DNA from: Serratia plymuthica
Lineage (GTDB): Bacteria > Pseudomonadota > Gammaproteobacteria > Enterobacterales > Enterobacteriaceae
Direction: 5' to 3'
Assembly (NCBI RefSeq): GCF_018336935.1
Contig: NZ_CP068771.1
Location: 558,001 to 622,000 of the forward strand
DNA: 64,000 bases
In this document: one piece after another, positions 19,208 to 30,408 of the stretch
Position numbering within the stretch: the stretch's first letter is position 1
Layout: every line of letters starts with the position of its first letter
Notes under the pieces: model-generated
The model's input: only the letters and a program-made list of their open reading frames with translations
Database searches by the model: none
Told to the model about the DNA's origin: nothing
Position numbers and translations under genes: made by a program

Positions 19208-19236
19208 AAAATGGCCCTTTCATGGCGAAAGGGCCG
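19208..19236 (-). terminator. Terminator at the end of the hut operon
   Basis: On the minus strand GGCCCTTTC and GAAAGGGCC (19227-19235 and 19213-19221) form a 9-bp stem followed by ATTTTA. It starts six bases after the stop of the HutH paralog, which supports that gene as the last one of the leftward unit. Confidence 0.75.
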
Positions 19237-19241
19237 TAAGT

Positions 19242-20765
19242 TCAAGCCAGGTCTGGGGCGATTTCGTACAACACGCCTTGATCGGCAATCAACGCCGCGC
19301 TGGCGGCGATATCCGGCGCCAGCCAGCGATCCTGATGATAAGGCGCGACGCTTTGCCGCAGCCGTTGCCAGGCGCGCCCGGTTCCGGTGCCGAAACGGTA
19401 TTGCGTAAGGAATTCAAACGCCTGCGCCGCCAGCAGGTACTCAATCGCCAGGATCTGGTTAACATTGGCCAGCGCCTTATGCAGCCGCAGCGCCGCCCCG
19501 GTGCCCATGCTGAGGTGATCTTCCTGCAACGCCGAGGTCACGTAGTTGTCCACCACGCAGGGCTGAGCCAACTGGCGATTCTCCGCGCACAGCGCAGCCG
19601 CCACGTATTGGGCTATCATCATGCCGGAGTTGACCCCCGGCTCGCTGACCAAAAATGCCGGCAATCCGCTGACCAGCGGATTGATCAAACGATCGATGCG
19701 CCGTTCGGCGATACCGCCCAGTTCAGCGATGGCGATAGCCAGCAAATCGGCGGCCATGGCTACTGATTCGCCGTGCGGATTGGCTTGCGACATGACGCGA
19801 TAATTGTCCGGCGTACCGAGCAGCAGGGGGTTGTCGGTAGCACCGTTCAGCTCGGTTTCAATTTGCCGTTCGGCATGAGCGATCTGATCCCGGCAGGCGC
19901 CATGTACCTGTGGGATCGAACGGATGCTCAGAGCATCCTGAGTCCGAATACCCTCGCTGGCGGCTATCATCTCGCTGCCGTTCAAGAGCATCCGCAAGTT
20001 ACTGCCCACTCGTTGCATGCCTGGGTGCGGTTTGAGCGCTAAAATTTCGGTGTCGAAGGCGGCGATTTGCCCGCCCAACGCCTCAAAGCTCATTGCTCCC
20101 AACACGTCGGCCCAACGGGCCAGCCGCCAGACATCGGCCAGCGCCAGGCAGCTCAATCCGGTCATGCAGGGCGTGCCGTTAACCAGGCACAGACCGTCTT
20201 TGGCGCCGAGCGGTGGCGGCACGATACCTTCCTCGGCCAACGCCTGCGCAGCGGCGACGATTTGCCCGCGATAGCTGACTTCACCCAGGCCGATCAATGT
20301 GATGCCGATGTGCGCCATATGGGTCAGGTAGCCGACCGAGCCCTGCGCCGGCACCTGTGGCGTAATGCCGCGGTTAAGCAGCGCCAGCAGCGCTTCTACC
20401 ACCGGCCGCTGAATGCCGGACTTGCCGTGGCTGTAGTTGACGATGGCGCAACAGATAATGGCGCGGGTCTGGTCGTCGCTCAGTGGCGCGCCAACTCCGC
20501 AGGCGTGGCTCATCAACGTATTGCGCGACAGCTGCGTCAGCTGTTTGCCATGCAACGCCTGATTGCACAACGCGCCGAGTCCGGTATTGACGCCATAGGC
20601 GCGTTGTTCGCCGGCGACGATTTGCCGCACGATAGCCTGAGCGTTCTCGATCCGCGCCCAGGCGGCGTCAGACAGGCTTATCGGCGCCCGGTGGCGAGCC
20701 ACTGCCACTACGTCCTGCCAGCGTAGCGGTTGGCAATCGATCACTACTGAAGAGGGATAATGCAT
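19242..20765 (-). CDS. HutH-like aromatic amino acid lyase paralog lacking the MIO triad
   Basis: 507-residue member of the histidine/phenylalanine ammonia-lyase family. The fold signature is kept: Y57 (YGVNTGLG), H87 (SHACGVGAPL), N196 (LVNGTP), R282 and E415 (LQEDHLSM). However, the Ala-Ser-Gly that cyclises to the electrophilic MIO cofactor ([11 protein letters not shown] in HutH) is replaced by GSVGYLTHMAH, i.e. Y146-L147-T148, codons at 20322-20330. The active-site Tyr of the QDPYSLR motif is Leu (L279), and the Phe of GNFH is Pro (P330). An ordinary ammonia-lyase reaction is therefore unlikely. ATG 20765 follows the ABC ATPase gene by 10 bases, so it is co-expressed with the transporter. 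Possible roles are a ligand-binding or regulatory pseudoenzyme or a different chemistry; unknown. Confidence 0.88.
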   Translation of the reverse strand: MHYPSSVVIDCQPLRWQDVVAVARHRAPISLSDAAWARIENAQAIVRQIVAGEQRAYGVNTGLGALCNQALHGKQLTQLSRNTLMSHACGVGAPLSDDQTRAIICCAIVNYSHGKSGIQRPVVEALLALLNRGITPQVPAQGSVGYLTHMAHIGITLIGLGEVSYRGQIVAAAQALAEEGIVPPPLGAKDGLCLVNGTPCMTGLSCLALADVWRLARWADVLGAMSFEALGGQIAAFDTEILALKPHPGMQRVGSNLRMLLNGSEMIAASEGIRTQDALSIRSIPQVHGACRDQIAHAERQIETELNGATDNPLLLGTPDNYRVMSQANPHGESVAMAADLLAIAIAELGGIAERRIDRLINPLVSGLPAFLVSEPGVNSGMMIAQYVAAALCAENRQLAQPCVVDNYVTSALQEDHLSMGTGAALRLHKALANVNQILAIEYLLAAQAFEFLTQYRFGTGTGRAWQRLRQSVAPYHQDRWLAPDIAASAALIADQGVLYEIAPDLA

Positions 20766-20775
20766 AGCGGTATCC

Positions 20776-21633
20776 TCAGGCGCGCGCCACGATTGTCGGG
20801 CGAGGCTTCTGCACGTTTTCATCCAGCGCCAGGCGGCGCTGCACGAAGCGGTTGACGTACTCATCGGCCGGGTTATTAAGAATATCCTGCGGCGTGCCGA
20901 CCTGAATCAGTTTGCCGTCTTTCAGGATCGCAATCCGGTTGCCGATCCGCACCGCTTCATCCAGATCGTGAGTGATAAACACTAACGTCTTGTTAAGCTC
21001 TTTTTGCAGCGCCAGCAGTTGATCCTGCATTTCGGCGCGGATTAGCGGATCGAGTGCGCTGAAGGCTTCGTCCAGCAAAATGATGTCGGTATCGGTCGCC
21101 AGTGCGCGCGCCAGACCGACGCGTTGCCGCATGCCGCCGGATAGCTGGTGCGGGTAAGATTTCTCATACCCCTTCAGCCCGACGGTATTAATCCAGTGCT
21201 GCGCACGCTCCTGATACACTTCTTTCTTTTCGCCCCGGACTTTCAGGCCGTAGCCCACATTGTCCAGCACCGTCTTGTGCGGTAGCAGGCCGAAACTCTG
21301 AAACACCATGCTGATTTTGTGGCGGCGGAAGTGCTCGAGCCGTTTTTCGTCGTAACGCAGGATGTCTTCGCCGTCCACCAGGATCTGGCCGCTGGTGGGA
21401 TCGATCAGGCGGTTGAAATGACGCACCAGCGTGGATTTTCCCGATCCGGACAGGCCCATGATCACAAATATCTCGCCGGCTTCGATCGACATCGACAGAT
21501 CGTGCACACCCACCACGCAGTCGGTCGCCGTCTGCACTTCCTGTTTGGTCTTACCCTGCTGGCTCATTGCCAGCGCCGCAGCAGTTTTGTGGCCGAAGAT
21601 TTTGTAAACGTTTTTGATTTCGATTTTGTTCAT
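20776..21633 (-). CDS. ABC transporter ATP-binding protein, ProV/HutV type
   Basis: 285-residue ATPase of the quaternary-amine uptake group. Walker [10 protein letters not shown], signature LSGGMRQRVGLARAL, Walker B ILLDEAFSALDPL, and the H-loop THDLDEA are intact. An N-terminal insert (about residues 18-40) is typical of ProV/HutV. It lacks the C-terminal CBS domains of full ProV. It sits five bases after the permease gene and powers the importer made with the next two genes upstream. Its place in a hut cluster suggests histidine (HutXWV), but glycine betaine or proline cannot be excluded from sequence. Confidence 0.88.
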   Translation of the reverse strand: MNKIEIKNVYKIFGHKTAAALAMSQQGKTKQEVQTATDCVVGVHDLSMSIEAGEIFVIMGLSGSGKSTLVRHFNRLIDPTSGQILVDGEDILRYDEKRLEHFRRHKISMVFQSFGLLPHKTVLDNVGYGLKVRGEKKEVYQERAQHWINTVGLKGYEKSYPHQLSGGMRQRVGLARALATDTDIILLDEAFSALDPLIRAEMQDQLLALQKELNKTLVFITHDLDEAVRIGNRIAILKDGKLIQVGTPQDILNNPADEYVNRFVQRRLALDENVQKPRPTIVARA

Positions 21634-21638
21634 CGGAA

Positions 21639-22484
21639 TTACCTCGCAACGGCGGAACGGCCATAGGCCTGAGTGATGCGATCAATGACCACCGCCAGGA
21701 TAACGATCGCCAGCCCGGCTTCGAGCCCCAGCCCCACGTTCAGCGTCTGAATGCCCACCAGCACGTCTTCGCCCAGGCCGCGTGCGCCGATCATCGAGGC
21801 GACGACCACCATCGACAGCGACATCATGGTGGTCTGGTTGATGCCGGCCATGATGCTTGGCAGCGCCAGCGGCAACTGCACGCCGAACAGTTTCTGCCAA
21901 CTGTTGGCGCCAAAGGCGGTGACGGACTCCATCACTTCCTTATCCACCTGGCGGATCCCCAAATCGGTCAGGCGGATCAGCGGCGGCGTGGCGTAGATCA
22001 CCGTCGCCAGGATTGCCGGCACCTTGCCCAGGCCGAACAGCATCAGCACCGGGATCAAGTACACGAAGCTTGGCATGGTTTGCATCACATCCATCAGCGG
22101 CATCATTATCGCCCGCACACGGTTGCTGCGCGCCGACAGTATGCCCAGCGGAATGCCGATAATCACCGCCAGCAGCGTGGCGACCAGCACCAGCGCCAGG
22201 GTTTGCATCAATTTGTCCCACATGCCTGCGGTGCCGACCAGCAACAGCAGGCCGACAATCACTACCGTCGGCAGCCAGCGCCGGGTGGCATGCCAGGCCA
22301 ACAGGCCGACGAGCGCCAACATCAGCCACCACGGCGTGGCGCGCAGCAGGCTCTCAAGGTGGATCACCGCCCACAGCAGGGTATCGGAGATCTTGCGGAA
22401 CATGTCGCCATATTGGGTGACCAGCGCATCGACCCAGCCGTTGATCCAATCGGCGATGGAGAAGGTAAAGCGTTCTGGAAACAT
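21639..22484 (-). CDS. ABC transporter permease, ProW/HutW type
   Basis: 281-residue inner-membrane permease with about six to seven helices. The coupling motif is in the region GANSWQKLFGVQLPLALPSIMAGINQT, which fits the EAA loop, and SMVVVASMIGARGLGEDV is the usual ProW-type end. An amphipathic N-terminal stretch of about 50 residues precedes the first helix, shorter than E. coli ProW. It lies between the binding-protein and ATPase genes in the same direction. The substrate is inferred only from the hut context. Confidence 0.87.
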   Translation of the reverse strand: MFPERFTFSIADWINGWVDALVTQYGDMFRKISDTLLWAVIHLESLLRATPWWLMLALVGLLAWHATRRWLPTVVIVGLLLLVGTAGMWDKLMQTLALVLVATLLAVIIGIPLGILSARSNRVRAIMMPLMDVMQTMPSFVYLIPVLMLFGLGKVPAILATVIYATPPLIRLTDLGIRQVDKEVMESVTAFGANSWQKLFGVQLPLALPSIMAGINQTTMMSLSMVVVASMIGARGLGEDVLVGIQTLNVGLGLEAGLAIVILAVVIDRITQAYGRSAVAR

Positions 22485-22552: not shown

Positions 22553-23518
22553 TTACAAAGAGGCCTGAATTTTTTTCGCCGCGTCTTCGCTGACCCACTG
22601 TTTCCAGATATCCGGGTGCTGTTTGAAGAACTCCAGCGCCAGCTTCTGCGAGCTGATGCGTTCCTTGCTCATGCGCGCCAGATTCTGATTGACCAGATCG
22701 AGCGGCAGATTCACTTTTGCCAACATTTGCACCAGTTCAGGCGCCTGCTGGTTAAACACGCTGGAAATCCCGACTTTGATGTGGATGTTCTTGTCCACGC
22801 CGGGCTCGTCCAGTTTCACCAGATCGAGCTGGCCCATCAGCGGGGTTGGCGACCAGTAGTAGAACAAAATAGGTTCGCCGCGGCGGTAGCTGGAAAGAAT
22901 GGCGGTATCGAGTGCGGGGCCAGTGCCGGGGCGGAAGTTGGTGAACTTATCCTCCAGTTTGAATTTTTTCAGGATGGCGGTGTTATCCAGCTCGCAGGTC
23001 CAGCCTGCCGGGCAATTGTAGAAGCGGCCTTTGTCAGGCTCTTCCTGATCGCGGAAAAGCTGCACGTATTTGGCGAGATCCGGGATGCTTTTCAGATCCG
23101 GTGCCAGGGGTTTCAGTTTGCGTTTGGCGTCGCCTTCAATCACGTAACGCGGCACATACCAGCCTTCGACTGCGCCAACAATAGGCGCGCCGACGCTGAC
23201 AGCCTTGCCGGCTTTCTCTGCTTTGTTCCAGACTTCGCTGCGGCCAATCCACTCTTCGGCGAACACCTGAATGTCATTGGTGCCGATCGCCTGCTCCATG
23301 GTGATAGAGTTACCCGGCAGCGCGTCGGTTTTACAATCGTAGCCCTTTTGCAGCACATATTGCATGACGTCGGTCAGCAGCATGCCGCTTTCCCAGTTCA
23401 GTCCGGCGAACTTGACCGGTTTACCAGATTCGCACCAACCTGCGGCGCGCGCGGAAAGGCTGCCTGTCATCAGCCCGAGCGCGATTAAGGGGATCCATAG
23501 TTTATGTCGTGTTTGCAT
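22553..23518 (-). CDS. ABC transporter periplasmic binding protein, ProX/HutX type
   Basis: 321-residue OpuAC-domain binding protein. A signal peptide is visible (about 1-25, SARA|AG). The mature part begins GWCESGKPVKFAGLNWESG, typical of the HutX/ProX group. Paired cysteines occur near the N-terminus (WCES, YDCK) and in CPAGWTCE, probably disulfides in the periplasm. The YYWSPTPLMG segment provides aromatic residues of the kind used to bind cationic ligands. It is the first gene of the ABC set, 53 bases after the permease gene with a hairpin in between. Confidence 0.87.
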   Translation of the reverse strand: MQTRHKLWIPLIALGLMTGSLSARAAGWCESGKPVKFAGLNWESGMLLTDVMQYVLQKGYDCKTDALPGNSITMEQAIGTNDIQVFAEEWIGRSEVWNKAEKAGKAVSVGAPIVGAVEGWYVPRYVIEGDAKRKLKPLAPDLKSIPDLAKYVQLFRDQEEPDKGRFYNCPAGWTCELDNTAILKKFKLEDKFTNFRPGTGPALDTAILSSYRRGEPILFYYWSPTPLMGQLDLVKLDEPGVDKNIHIKVGISSVFNQQAPELVQMLAKVNLPLDLVNQNLARMSKERISSQKLALEFFKQHPDIWKQWVSEDAAKKIQASL

Positions 23519-23571: not shown

Positions 23572-24963
23572 TTAATACTGCGGTGAGGTCGTGACGGGTG
23601 AACCCCCGCCTTTTTTACGCACCCACAACCAGTATGCCAGGGTAAGGAAAGCCACCCACACCAGCCCGACGTACAGGGCGATGCGGCTATCCTCGAAGTA
23701 ACCGAGCAGGCCGATGACGAACAGCATGAACACCGTCGCCAGCGCCGGCGCTATCGGCCACCAGGGAACCGGGAAACTCAGTTTGCTGACTTCCTGTGGC
23801 GTCAGCGTACGGCGCATGGCTGCCTGCGACAGCAGGATCATCAGCCACACCCAGACGGTCGCGAAGGTGGCGATGGAGGCGATGATCATAAACACCTGTT
23901 TTGGTATCAGGTAGTTAAGCACCACGCCCAACAGCAGGGCGACAGACATCACCAGCACCGTCATCCAGGGCACGCCGTTGGCGGTCAGTTTGGAGAAGCT
24001 TTTCGGTGCCTGACCATCCTGCGCCATGCCGTACATCATGCGGCCGGCGCCGAAGATGTCGCTGTTGATGGCGGAAATGGCGGCGGTGATCACCACCACG
24101 TTCAGCACGTTGGCGGCGGAGCTGATGCCCAGATTGCTGAAGATCTCCACAAACGGGCTGCCGTTCTGGCCGATGCTGTTCCACGGATAGATGGCCATCA
24201 GCACCAGCAGCGTCAGCACATAGAACAGCAGGATGCGCACCGGCACGGCATTGATCGCTTTCGGCAGCACCTTCGCAGGGTCTTTCGCCTCGCTGGCGGT
24301 GATGCCGATGATTTCAATGCCGCCGAAAGCGAACATCACTACCGCCAACGAGGCGATCACGCCGCCGATGCCGTTTGGCATAAAGCCGCCGTGCTGCCAC
24401 AGATTGCTAAAGCCGGTGGCGTGCTGGGTCTGGCCGAAACCAAACAGCATCACCGCTGCGCCGCCGACGATCATCGCTACGATAGCCGCGACCTTGATCA
24501 GCGACAGCCAGAACTCCATTTCGCCGAACACTTTCACGCTGCACAGGTTGAGCGCGCCGATAAACATGATAATGCTGAGCACCCACACCCACTGGGCGAC
24601 GTCCGGGAACCACAGCCCCATATAGATGCCGAAGGCGGTGACGTCCGCCAGGGCGACGATCACCATTTCGAAGGTATAGGTCCAGCCGGTGAGGAAACCG
24701 GCCAGCGGGCCAAGATAGTGGCTGGCGTAGTGGCCGAATGAACCTGAGACCGGTTGATGCACCGCCATTTCGCCCAGCGCGCGCATCACCATAAACACCG
24801 CCGCGCCGCCGACCAGATAGGCCAGCAGCACGGCCGGGCCGGCCAGTTGGATCGCCCCGGCGGAGCCGTAGAACAGGCCGGTGCCGATGGCGGAACCGAG
24901 CGCCATAAAGCGGATATGCCGCGCGTTTAATCCGCGTCTGAGTTGTGTTGTTTCGTTACGCAT
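23572..24963 (-). CDS. APC-family amino acid permease, HutT/ProY type
   Basis: 463-residue, 12-helix proton-coupled permease of the amino-acid transporter family, very similar to ProY/HutT. It contains [21 protein letters not shown] (first helix motif), [19 protein letters not shown] and a long [20 protein letters not shown] 24963 gives the standard [12 protein letters not shown] start; the 27-residue upstream extension has no family match. Being directly after hutH it is most likely the histidine (or urocanate) permease, but the specificity is inferred from context. Confidence 0.9.
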
Positions 24964-25124: not shown

Positions 25125-26660
25125 TTATGCCTGGCTAGGCAGCAGCGCTGCTGGCATCAGCGATGTCAGATGACCTGCCGCCAACAGCAGGCTGGCGGCT
25201 TCAATGTCGGGGGCGAAGAAACGATCCTTGTCGTAGTAGCTGACATGTTCACGCAGCGTGCGGCGTGCCTGCTCCAGGGCTTCCGACGTTTTCAGGCCTT
25301 TGCGCAGATCCAGCCCCTGACAGGCGGCCAGCCACTCGACGGCTAAAATGCCGCGCACGTTATCCGCCATTTCCCACAGGCGGCGGCCTGCGGCAGGCGC
25401 CATGGAGACATGGTCTTCCTGGTTGGCGGAGGTCGGGATGCTGTCGACGCTGGCCGGGTGGGCCAACGCCTTGTTCTCGCTGGTCAGCGCTGCGGCGGTC
25501 ACCTGGGCGATCATAAAGCCGGAGTTCACCCCGCCGTTGTCCACCAGGAATGGCGGCAACTGCGACATGTGCTTATCCATCATCAGCGAGATACGGCGCT
25601 CGGACAGCGAGCCGATTTCGGCAAACGCCAGCGCCAGGTTGTCGGCGGCCATGGCGACCGGTTCGGCATGGAAGTTACCGCCGGACAGCACGTCGCCCTG
25701 CTCGGCGAACACCAGCGGGTTATCGGACACCGCGTTGGCTTCGATCTCCAGCACTTCGCTGGCCTGGCGGATCTGCGTCAGGCAGGCGCCCATGACCTGC
25801 GGCTGGCAGCGCAGGGAATAAGGATCCTGCACTTTCTCGCAGTTGCGATGCGAATCGGACACTTCGCTGCGCTCGCCGAGCAGGTGGCGATAGGCTGCGG
25901 CGGCGTCGATCTGGCCACGTTGGCCGCGCACCTCATGGATACGCGCGTCAAATGGGCTGCGTGACCCCAGAGCGGCTTCCACCGTCAGGCTGCCGGTGAC
26001 CGTGGCCGCAGCGTACAGATCTTCCGCGTCGAACAGGCCGCGCAGGGCAAAGGCGGCGGAAACCTGGGTGCCGTTCAGCAGCGCCAGGCCCTCTTTGGCG
26101 GCCAGCGTCAGCGGCTTCAGGCCCGCTTTGGCCAGCGCATCGGTGGCAGGCAGCCATTCGCCCTGATAACGGGCCTTGCCTTCACCCAGCAGCACCAGGC
26201 TCATGTGAGCCAGCGGCGCTAGGTCACCGGAGGCGCCAACGGAGCCTTTCAGTGGAATGTGCGGATACACTTCTGCGTTCACCAGCGCTATCAGCGCCTG
26301 GATCACTTCCAGGCGGATGCCGGAAAAACCGCGCGACAGACTGTTGATTTTCAGCACCATAATCAGGCGCACCAGGTTGTCGTCGGTCGGGGCGCCCACG
26401 CCGGCGGCGTGAGACAGCACGATCGAACGCTGCAGGTTTTCCAGATCTTCACGGGCGATACGGGTAGACGCCAGCAGGCCGAAACCGGTATTGATGCCGT
26501 AAGTGGTGCGGTTTTCTTCAACGATGCGCTCTACGCAGGCGACGCTTTGCTGAATGGCGGCATAGGCGCTGTCGTCAAGCTGAAGGCGAACCGGATGTTG
26601 ATAAACCTCACGCAGTTGCGAAAGCCGAAGTTGGCCTGGGCGAATAGTCAGCGCTTTCAT
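25125..26660 (-). CDS. hutH: Histidine ammonia-lyase
   Basis: 511-residue histidase that deaminates histidine to urocanate. It has the full MIO triad A143-S144-G145 ([12 protein letters not shown]), Y54 (TYGINTGFG), H84 (SHAAGVGAP), N196 (LLNGTQ), the [11 protein letters not shown] motif and NQEDHVSM. It is thus a complete contrast to the paralog at the operon end. ATG 26660 overlaps the hutU stop by four bases (ATGA), so translation is coupled. The reading frame extending to 26720 is hutU sequence in another frame. Confidence 0.97.
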
Positions 26661-28348
26661 GCTTTGTCTCCTTGGGTGGCGGCGACCATCGGCAGGTTCA
26701 GGCCCTGCTCGCGGGCACATTCGATGGCGATGTCGTAACCGGCATCGGCATGGCGCATGACGCCGGTGGCCGGGTCGTTATGCAAGACGCGGGCGATGCG
26801 CTCGGCGGCTTCATCGGTACCGTCACAAACGATGACCATGCCGGAATGCTGCGAGAAGCCCATGCCGACGCCACCGCCGTGGTGCAGAGAAACCCAGGTC
26901 GCGCCGCTGGCGGTATTCAGCAGGGCGTTAAGCAGCGGCCAGTCGGAGACGGCGTCTGAACCGTCTTTCATCGATTCGGTTTCGCGGTTCGGGCTTGAGA
27001 CCGAGCCGGAGTCCAGGTGGTCGCGGCCAATCACGATCGGCGCAGACAGTTCACCGCTGCGTACCATCTCGTTGAACGCCAGGCCCAGCTTGGCGCGCTG
27101 GCCCAGACCGACCCAGCAGATACGCGCCGGCAGCCCCTGGAAGCTGATGCGCTCGCGCGCCATATCCAGCCAGTGGTGCAGATGCTCGTCATCCGGGATC
27201 AGCTCTTTAACTTTAGCGTCGGTTTTGTAGATGTCCTGCGGATCGCCGGACAGTGCGGCCCAGCGGAACGGGCCGACGCCGCGGCAGAACAGCGGGCGAA
27301 TATAGGCCGGCACGAAGCCCGGGAAGTCGAAGGCGTTGCTGACGCCCATTTCTTTCGCCATCTGGCGGATATTGTTGCCGTAGTCGAAGGTCGGCACGCC
27401 CATCTTCTGGAAGGCCAGCATGGCTTCCACGTGTTCGGCCATCGATTGCTTGGCGGCGATGACCACCTGCGCAGGTTCGGTCTGCGCGCGCTGGCGGTAT
27501 TCTTCCCAGCTCCAGCCCTTCGGCAGGTAGCCGTTCAACGGGTCATGGGCGCTGGTCTGGTCGGTGACCATGTCAGGACGCACGCCGCGGCGCACCAGTT
27601 CAGGCAGGATATCCGCCGCGTTGCCGCACAGGGCGATAGAGATGGCTTTGCCTTCTGCGGTGTATTTCTTGAGGCGCGCCAGCGCGTCGTCCAGATCCTT
27701 GGCTTGTTCATCGACGTAGCGGGTTTTCAGACGGAAATCGATGCGGCTCTGCTGGCATTCGATGTTCAGCGAGCTGGCACCGGCCAGTGTGGCGGCCAGC
27801 GGCTGAGCGCCGCCCATGCCGCCCAGACCGGCGGTCAGTACCCAGCGGCCTTTCAGGCTGCCGTCGTAATGCTGGCGGCCGGCTTCCACGAAGGTCTCGT
27901 AAGTCCCCTGGACGATGCCCTGGCTGCCGATGTAGATCCAGCTGCCGGCGGTCATCTGGCCGTACATGGCCAGGCCTTTGGCATCCAGTTCGTTAAAGTG
28001 TTCCCAGGTGGCCCAATGTGGCACCAGGTTGGAGTTGGCGATCAGCACGCGCGGCGCGTTGCTGTGGGTTTTAAATACGCCGACCGGCTTGCCGGATTGC
28101 ACCAGCAGCGTTTCGTCGTCTTCCAGCGTTTTCAGGGTGGCGACAATTTTGTCGTAGCAATCCCAGTCACGCGCGGCGCGACCAATACCGCCGTACACCA
28201 CCAGTTCATGCGGGTTTTCCGCTACTTCAGGATCGAGGTTGTTCATCAGCATGCGCAGCGGCGCTTCGGTCAGCCAGCTTTTTGCATTTAATTGTGTGCC
28301 GCGTGGCGCGCGTACATCGACATGGCGAACTTTGTTATTTGCAGTCAC
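26657..28348 (-). CDS. hutU: Urocanate hydratase
   Basis: 563-residue urocanase, which hydrates urocanate to imidazolonepropionate with tightly bound NAD+. The glycine-rich [12 protein letters not shown] loop and the catalytic cysteine C411 (PARICWVG) are present. I chose the GTG at 28348: it is preceded by GAGGAAA with good spacing and gives the usual family length, whereas the upstream ATG at 28384 has no ribosome site. It is the first gene of the leftward hut operon. A probable HutC operator lies about 95 bases upstream. Confidence 0.95.
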
Positions 28349-28434
28349 AGCATTTTCCTCAAACAGTATCGGTGCAGATTCCATAACGCGGTGGGGTTAA
28401 TCACCACGCCATAATAATGCGTAGGGTTTATTAA

Positions 28435-28747: not shown

Positions 28748-30085
28748 TTATGCTGCCGGCTGCAGCACCGTTTTTCGGGTCATTTTGAATACCGTTGCGA
28801 TGGCGGCGATCAGGGCCGGTACGCACAGGAACATCAGGATGCTTTGCACTTCCCAGTGCATGGCAAGCAATTGCGCGCCCATCATGGTGCCCGCAACGCC
28901 GCCAAAACGGCCGATGCCTTGCATCCAGGCGATACCGGTGGCGCGGCTGTGGGTGGGGTAAAAGGTGGCGGCCAGCGTTTGCAGGCCCGATTGCGCGCCG
29001 TTCATGGTGATGCCCATCAGGAAGATAAAGGCACCCAGCAGCACGATATGGCTGTCCTCGGTCGCCATTGCCACAATCAACAGGGCGGTAATGACAAAAC
29101 CGCTCGACACCACTTTATGGGCGTTCCAGCGGTCCATCAGCCAGCCGGCCGCCAGAATGCCGAGGGTGCCACCGAAGGTGAACAACGAGGTCAGAATGGC
29201 CGACTGTTCAAGCGGGTAACCCAGCCCCTGCATCAGGATCGGCATCCAGCTCAGCAGCACGTAATAAATCACCAGCCCCATGAAGTAGGTCAGCCACAGC
29301 ATCAGTGTGCCGGCCAGATAAGGGCGGGTGAACAGCAGGCCGACGCTGGTTTTTGACTGCGCCAGCTTCTCTTCATACAGGTAGAAACGCGTGACGTTAT
29401 CGATATTCTGGCTGACGAAGCGCTGGGCGATGCGTCTGATTTTCATCGCATCCTTGCCGCGGTTCACCATGTACTTCACCGATTCCGGCAGGAACAGGAT
29501 CAGCAATAGCGTCAGGATCAGAGGAGCTATTGCTCCCAGCAGCAGCACGCTGTGCCAGCCATAGGTCGGGATCAGCCACGATGAGATGGCGCCACCACCG
29601 GCGGCACCCAGCGGGAAGCCGCAATACATGGTGTTAATTGCCATCGAGCGGCAGCGCTGCGGCGCATATTCGGAAATGAGCGTGATGGCGTTCGGCATCG
29701 CCGCACCCAGGCCCAGCCCGGTCAGAAAGCGCCACAGCGTCAGGCTGTTGAGCGAACCGGCATAGGCGGTGGCCAGGCTGGACAGGCCGAAGAACAGGCA
29801 CGAAAACACCAACACCCGCTTGCGGCCGATGCGATCGGAGATCGGCCCGGCCACCAGCGCGCCGAGTGACAGCCCCAGCAGCGCGGCGCTCAGCACCGGA
29901 CCGAGATCCTGTTTCACAATTCCCCAATCTTTGGCGACCGAAGGGGCGATATAACCCATTGCCGCAGTGTCAAAACCATCAATGGCAAGGATCAGGAATC
30001 CCAAAATGATCAAGGTCCAATGAAACAGCGAGAATTTGCTGTCGTCGATGGCCTGCTGAATATTCAACTCGGTGGAATGAGCCAT
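28748..30085 (-). CDS. MFS transporter, aromatic acid:H+ symporter (AAHS) family
   Basis: 445-residue, 12-helix major-facilitator carrier. The first-helix motif LAIDGFDTAAMGYIAPSVA and the loop GPISDRIGRKRVLV are hallmarks of PcaK/MhpT-type aromatic acid symporters. ATG 30085 follows AGAGGG; 27 further in-frame codons upstream are not supported. No aromatic catabolism genes are nearby. Its promoter carries the same TGTATRTACA palindrome as hutU, so an imidazole compound such as urocanate is a possible substrate; this is an inference. Confidence 0.88.
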   Translation of the reverse strand: MAHSTELNIQQAIDDSKFSLFHWTLIILGFLILAIDGFDTAAMGYIAPSVAKDWGIVKQDLGPVLSAALLGLSLGALVAGPISDRIGRKRVLVFSCLFFGLSSLATAYAGSLNSLTLWRFLTGLGLGAAMPNAITLISEYAPQRCRSMAINTMYCGFPLGAAGGGAISSWLIPTYGWHSVLLLGAIAPLILTLLLILFLPESVKYMVNRGKDAMKIRRIAQRFVSQNIDNVTRFYLYEEKLAQSKTSVGLLFTRPYLAGTLMLWLTYFMGLVIYYVLLSWMPILMQGLGYPLEQSAILTSLFTFGGTLGILAAGWLMDRWNAHKVVSSGFVITALLIVAMATEDSHIVLLGAFIFLMGITMNGAQSGLQTLAATFYPTHSRATGIAWMQGIGRFGGVAGTMMGAQLLAMHWEVQSILMFLCVPALIAAIATVFKMTRKTVLQPAA

Positions 30086-30408
30086 GGCACCCTCTAAACG
30101 CAGATGTGATATTGGTGGATGCACTGCCGGAACTGATGTCCGACTTGTGCTTGCCTGTATATACATCTGCGCCGCAACGATTTATGTCAAATATATTTGT
30201 CTGATTTGTTATCTGCATGTTGTTTTTACGCCGCAGGATGCATCGCCAATGTGGCGGCTGACGAGGATAAACGTAATAAATGAAGCAGATAGACGGTGGG
30301 ATAGGCTGGGCCATGGCGAGAAGATAAAATTTAATACAATTTAGCCGGTTTGGTTGCCGGGCCGTAATCTGAGATAATCGCTTTTTCCCTATCCTGATTG
30401 AGAAACCG
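30086..30408. other. Divergent promoter region between the MFS gene and queE
   Basis: 323 bases without a gene. It contains the MFS operator and -35 described separately, and on the queE side an AT-rich stretch before GATTGAGAAACCG, the presumed queE ribosome site region. I see no riboswitch-like structure. Confidence 0.6.
30156..30190 (-). promoter_or_regulatory. MFS promoter with TGTATATACA palindrome
   Basis: A perfect 10-bp palindrome TGTATATACA (30156-30165) lies about 19 bases downstream, on the minus strand, of a consensus -35 TTGACA (30185-30190), and so would cover the -10. The 10-mer matches the core of the hutU operator (TGTATGTACA) except at one base. Confidence 0.55.

Follow-up and report, generated by a model that had tools for sequence, protein, structure and literature searches.

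A MIO-free histidase paralog at the end of a Serratia plymuthica hut operon, and its probable role as a hercynine trimethylamine-lyase

The hut operon of Serratia plymuthica raises the question of what a histidase-like protein may do that lacks the Ala-Ser-Gly (ASG) tripeptide of the MIO electrophile and that is encoded together with a true histidase and an importer. The operon was analyzed in a window of 64,000 nucleotides (the whole stretch under study; contig NZ_CP068771.1, positions 558,001 to 622,000), and the following features were found:

19213..19235, minus strand: terminator-like hairpin directly after H2, at the operon end, found by a consensus scan
19242..20765, minus strand: H2, our label for the MIO-less HutH paralog (HutH1-like), 507 aa, predicted hercynine trimethylamine-lyase
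20310..20342, minus strand: the motif GSVGYLTHMAH (H2 residues 142-152), with Y146 in place of the Ala-Ser-Gly-Asp of HutH
20776..21633, minus strand: hutV, ATPase of a betaine/proline/choline-class ABC importer (TIGR01186, 359.5 bits, cut-off 326.6)
21639..22484, minus strand: hutW, permease of the ChoW/ProW type (TIGR03416, 295.2 bits, under the cut-off of 363)
22553..23518, minus strand: hutX, substrate-binding protein, the conserved onium box of which has four Trp (W42, W90, W173, W222) as well as Y220 and E118
23572..24963, minus strand: hutT-like amino-acid permease gene, nearest model ProY (NF007876, 667.7 bits, under the cut-off of 736)
25125..26660, minus strand: true hutH, histidase with intact ASG (TIGR01225, 748.9 bits, cut-off 539.15)
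26657..28384, minus strand: hutU, urocanate hydratase (TIGR01228, 1025.3 bits, cut-off 375)

On the minus strand the operon has the order hutU-hutH-hutT-like permease gene-hutX-hutW-hutV-H2. The H2 reading frame is intact and starts with the ATG at 20765; an alternative start (ATG at 20864, 540 aa) would run into hutV and was judged less likely. The gene begins 10 bases past hutV and is followed by the hairpin, and thus it ends the operon right after a HutXWV-type importer, as the earlier note on this DNA had proposed. The operon lies downstream of a putative eno and before putative cysJ/cysI genes. The host genome is a single contig of 5.46 Mb, and the nearest named database matches to H2 are Serratia plymuthica proteins (95%). 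It contains three PF00221 genes. Besides H2 and the true hutH there is a close homolog of admH (C1:6151-7578, plus strand; also found in L003), the product of which reached 1097.7 bits to PDB 3unv and carries the motif GSLGTSGDLG. AdmH is the aminomutase of andrimid biosynthesis. Upstream of hutU the window encodes an MFS transporter (28748-30166, minus strand), which is conserved among the Serratia loci and has PcaK as its nearest model, under the cut-off of the latter; it is a possible urocanate carrier.

The alignment of H2 with the true HutH that its own operon encodes (GSVGY---LTHMAH) verified that H2 is an intact HutH paralog without Ala-Ser-Gly. One Tyr stands for ASGD, and therefore three residues have been lost, which is more than a substitution. 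Eighty H2 loci from other genomes were compared, which had been chosen from a genome scan by more than 60% identity, are 65-91% identical to H2 over the aligned residues, and include Serratia, Pseudomonas, Pantoea, Raoultella, Enterobacter, Erwinia, Brenneria and Sodalis. All 80 have GSVGY-L[TS]HMAH, as do the best 120 of 7352 database matches, among which is the window's own protein, and by both results a random scatter of the MIO loss among relatives was ruled out. Three plasmid copies from Rhizobium and Burkholderia, with 49-51% identity, read GS[AV]GY-LTH. When sequences were sorted by best match, GS[VA]GYL was found in 85 of the 86 closest to H2 (GSIGE in the remaining one), and ASG in 40 of the 46 closest to HutH (GSIGC in three, GSVGYLAV in two, GSLGTSG in one). 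The tripeptide that cyclizes to MIO in HutH is thus absent from the H2 of the window and of all 80 loci. Annotation by PF00221 and TIGR01225 nevertheless names such MIO-less proteins histidases, and H2 itself, with 542.5 bits, is accepted by the hutH equivalog model TIGR01225 (cut-off 539.15) by a margin of 3 bits.

The dN/dS values of H2 were 0.05-0.14 versus ten Serratia and Pseudomonas relatives, so that the selection on H2 postulated in the earlier note was borne out. The control values were 0.03-0.16 for the true HutH (nine relatives, after the out-of-frame L009 row had been dropped) and 0.015-0.13 for HutV, and from this comparison it is clear that H2 is under purifying selection, which is slightly weaker within Serratia. 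A sequencing error or gene decay as the origin of the ASG loss was ruled out by these values and the conservation at 80 of 80 loci. At L009 (Serratia rubidaea NCTC12971) the matches to hutH, hutT and hutW are fragmented and that to hutX is 59% only, which looks like an assembly error rather than decay. The L063 copy, 67% identical and taken from a record titled Chryseobacterium, has almost the gene order of L061 (Enterobacteriaceae); the record may be mistitled, or its contig may be foreign.

In the phylogenetic tree the 34 H2 rows formed one clade with an SH-aLRT of 100, separate from the HutH and the ergothionase-like rows, in a tree with long-branch warnings for, among others, the ergothionase rows, the T3 rows (see below) and the outgroup. 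The motif of the window is thus conserved across a whole clade. The predicted structure of H2, a monomer model, had a pLDDT of 90.7 and a pTM of 0.92, residues 141-150 and 401-420 being among its less certain parts. It has the full-length HAL fold (Foldseek TM 0.92 to 1eb4) and matches the Pseudomonas putida histidase and the Treponema denticola ergothionase. H2 and its relatives are thus a real and conserved branch within the histidase family, one that is free of MIO.

Four positions outside the loop are of importance for the substrate question:

19929..19931, minus strand: L279, at the position of HAL Tyr280, from the alignment
19776..19778, minus strand: P330, at the position of HAL Phe329, from the alignment
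19605..19607, minus strand: Y387, invariant in the H2 clade
19521..19523, minus strand: E415, kept glutamate, equivalent to HAL E414 and ergothionase E411

Residues were counted in 83 H2 rows (77 of the 80 loci plus four loci on plasmids, the window itself and the copy from its own genome), 34 HutH rows and five ergothionase-like rows; because this same motif had served to assign the rows to their groups, the counts for Y146 and ASG hold by construction. Y57, H87, N196, R282, M383 and E415 were kept in 83 of 83 H2 rows, residues whose histidase equivalents serve as the base and hold the imidazole and the carboxylate. In contrast to P. putida HutH (PDB 1b8f), H2 has no MIO sequence and has L279 for Tyr280, P330 for Phe329 and Y387 for a Val. 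At the Tyr280 position Leu was found in 81 H2 rows (Met in two) and in all five ergothionase-like rows, versus Tyr in 34/34 HutH rows; at the Phe329 position Pro was found in 80 of 83 H2 rows versus Phe in all HutH rows. Residue 387 is Tyr in every H2 row, Val in 34 of 34 HutH rows and Lys in 5/5 ergothionase-like rows, and residue 67 is Cys in 71 of 83 H2 rows and Lys in four of the five ergothionase-like ones. The kept residues and both exchanges reported from the first inspection of the sequence were therefore confirmed by the alignment. Judged from sequence, the amine- or MIO-facing side of the pocket appears to have been rebuilt in a conserved way by Y146, L279, P330 and Y387. The kept and changed residues, together with the missing ergothionase lysines, point to a substrate that resembles histidine at the ring and the carboxylate, differs at the amine and contains no sulfur, and hercynine (histidine betaine) fits these features.

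The H2 clade is mostly located beside importer genes and genes for histidine breakdown. By the cut-off used, an importer gene was present at 77 of the 80 loci. The earlier note had proposed to check whether the clade always neighbors hutXWV, and this did not hold: a HutX-type importer was found at 35 loci, and an unrelated importer of the octopine/nopaline type at 42, the latter count being defined by similarity to one searched binding protein. Both kinds are intermixed in the tree, L026 and L030 sitting among HutXWV-linked Pseudomonas, which suggests that the same substrate is taken for both, presumably a quaternary amine with the structure of an amino acid. The closest solved relative of HutX is the DMSP-binding protein DmpX (7yle). 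Its HutX counterparts W42, W90, W173, W222 and Y220 and the Glu of the box were invariant in 41/41 HutX rows (the window and 40 HutX-like open reading frames from 35 loci, five of these being second copies), and the carboxylate-binding positions Thr64 and Ala153 of DmpX are occupied by Ser (37 of 41) and Thr (41 of 41). In PMC10030565 the ligand box of DmpX is given as Trp35, Trp84, Trp152, Trp202, Tyr200 and Glu113, and aromatic boxes are described as the way in which binding proteins hold quaternary amines. A point against a betaine as the substrate is that in SBW25, according to PMC8871633, HutXWV participates in histidine uptake. Another is the second importer type, for which the one binding protein that was searched has nopaline- and octopine-binding proteins as its nearest relatives. 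Such proteins are not known as betaine binders. In the eight aligned binding proteins of this type no clear betaine signature was found; W236 and E240 were invariant (8/8), and all eight kept the Asp that binds the alpha-ammonium group in HisJ-type proteins.

At least one hut gene was found near H2 at 65 of the 80 loci, and hutU itself at 39, within fetched stretches of at most 9 kb on each side; no hut gene was seen there at the other 15 loci, some of which lie on short contigs. All 45 H2-bearing genomes that were searched (from 47 loci) contained hutU, and two of three plasmid records with H2 carry hutU themselves. In a sample drawn evenly across the order, hutU was present in 157 of 295 genomes and H2 in five (E <= 1e-120), all five with hutU; the excess of hutU in H2 genomes (45/45 versus 157/295) is a count that ignores relatedness. 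In the host genome hutI and hutC are located about 1.3 Mb from the H2 operon, and therefore the further breakdown of urocanate is probable. A second HutU-family protein is encoded in G299, the genome of L004 (C10:158444-160045), its 686 bits to TIGR01228 being far under the true HutU.

Taken together, H2 is very likely an active MIO-free lyase for an N-modified histidine, and, as far as sequence can indicate, it is probably a hercynine trimethylamine-lyase that makes urocanate for HutU. The betaine would be imported through HutXWV, and H2 would convert hercynine to urocanate and trimethylamine. The beta proton would be abstracted by Tyr57, the carboxylate would be held by R282 and the imidazole by H87, M383 and E415, and, from the alignment, Y146, L279, P330 and Y387 would form a pocket for the N-trimethyl group. 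Since trimethylamine leaves far more readily than ammonia, a MIO electrophile would presumably be dispensable. HutU would then take over the urocanate and feed it into ordinary histidine breakdown. If this is true, soil and plant bacteria would have a new route to use hercynine, the precursor of ergothioneine, with the release of trimethylamine. A literature search, mostly of open-licence papers and hence weak evidence of novelty, yielded no paper on hercynine breakdown or hercynine lyase activity by such an enzyme.

The proposal would also bear on Pseudomonas fluorescens SBW25, in which hutH1 follows hutXWV, the place that H2 has in many Pseudomonas loci. From gene order and genus, H2 is inferred to be the counterpart of Pseudomonas HutH1. 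According to PMC8871633, HutH1 is called a histidase and is yet dispensable for growth on histidine. The absence of MIO from the Pseudomonas copies that follow hutXWV would explain this, and there is thus a testable reason why a second "histidase" gene sits with hutXWV and is not needed on histidine.

The other readings have to be weighed against hercynine cleavage. H2 might serve the hut pathway as an active lyase without MIO, but with another N-modified histidine as its substrate, e.g., N-dimethylhistidine or a histidine opine such as histopine, from which it would release urocanate and the corresponding amine. The kept histidine side and altered amine side of the pocket would suit such a substrate, as would the nopaline/octopine-type importers at 42 of 80 loci and the presence of HutU in all 45 genomes searched. 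However, on chemical grounds secondary and tertiary amines are expected to be poor leaving groups when MIO is absent, and the HutX box suits a fully methylated onium group, and thus this reading is regarded as unlikely.

The earlier note had left open a MIO-independent reaction or a pseudoenzyme with histidine or urocanate as its ligand, by which transport or HutH would be controlled. The first of these is favored here, whereas the second, in which HutH might be regulated through mixed tetramers, appears improbable. The MIO is indeed lost, and importer genes are present at 77 of the 80 loci. But the catalytic Tyr57 and the checked substrate-side residues are invariant, while base and ligand residues would not be expected to be kept in a pseudoenzyme, Tyr280 and Phe329 are replaced in a conserved way, and Y146 and Y387 are new invariant residues. 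In addition, ergothionase is an active MIO-free lyase of this fold, some H2 loci have no true hutH in the fetched stretch, and the gene of a related lyase without MIO has as neighbors a CoA-transferase and an enoyl-CoA hydratase gene, the products of which could use an unsaturated acid formed by the lyase.

PMC13405746 describes ergothionase as releasing trimethylamine without MIO. An identity of H2 with this enzyme, which converts ergothioneine to thiourocanate and trimethylamine, was considered. H2 and the T. denticola ergothionase (PDB 6s7j/6s7q) have in common the fold, the absence of MIO, Leu at the Tyr280 position and the equivalents of Tyr53 and Glu411. In contrast, the ergothionase site SSIGEGDI is one residue shorter than that of HAL and GSVGY is three shorter, and the enzyme for the sulfur-containing substrate has K63 and K383 (6s7j numbering), which are replaced in H2 by C67 and Y387. 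To judge from their conservation, both lysines probably have a catalytic role. Both recur in three lyases (L096-L098) within 19.9-kb stretches around thiourocanate hydratases above the cut-off; at a fourth such cluster (L099) no lyase homolog was found in 19.9 kb. The fifth ergothionase-like row, from Brenneria, has the second lysine only. Furthermore, the clades are separate in the tree, with the long-branch warnings mentioned, and the sole TIGR01228 match in the host genome is urocanate hydratase, with 693.6 bits versus a cut-off of 930 for thiourocanate hydratase (NF058530). On the residues, the clade and the missing second enzyme, the ergothionase identity was rejected as highly improbable. 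An ordinary histidase with some other electrophile, or a back-up histidase of low activity, is hardly credible, as the 3 bits by which H2 passes the NCBIfam hutH model stand against a clade-wide absence of the MIO tripeptide and the loss of Tyr280 and Phe329.

Beyond the H2 clade, MIO-less lyases with GSVGY make up a larger lineage, which occurs in Pseudomonas, rhizobia and Bacilli. A second MIO-less paralog, T3 (GSVGYLAVEGHL), is encoded directly upstream of H2 at L030 (7050-8591, plus strand) and L040 (6993-8585, plus strand). Like H2 it has the equivalents of Y146 and Y387 and the same three-residue loss; it differs in that it is only 36-37% identical and that both Pseudomonas T3 rows retain Tyr280 and Phe329. 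T3 and the H2 clade were joined with an SH-aLRT of only 80. Among 120 listed relatives of T3 (Pseudomonas, Rhizobium, Ensifer, Paraburkholderia, Bacillaceae and others), 104 had GS[VI]GY, while in 16 the motif was not found by a motif search; those that bear a name are annotated as histidine ammonia-lyase, HAL/PAL/TAL or aromatic lyase. No hut enzyme gene was noted beside T3 at the four loci that were looked at. A wider proposal, which we hold with slightly less than even confidence, is that bacterial "HutH" annotations hide a large MIO-free GSVGY lineage, the members of which cleave quaternary amines off the betaines of amino acids. Its hut-linked branch would be a hercynine trimethylamine-lyase and would, with HutXWV as its betaine importer, open a pathway from hercynine to glutamate, and the sister branches would act on other betaines. 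An activity of the lyase fold without its built-in cofactor in more than one clade would be of mechanistic interest.

In Brenneria (L047:13361-19131, minus strand) a further MIO-less lyase with GSIGEADLAP and a Lys at the 387 position adjoins an OsmF-like betaine-class importer and a gene of the ornithine cyclodeaminase family. On an Agrobacterium plasmid (L105:3503-11430, plus strand) a MIO-less GSVGY lyase gene is flanked on one side by an ABC importer and on the other by genes for a CoA transferase, a 3-hydroxyacyl-CoA dehydrogenase and an enoyl-CoA hydratase. The CoA-type genes next to it suggest that GSVGY proteins make unsaturated acids in a lyase-like manner, and the cassette is a possible betaine pathway.
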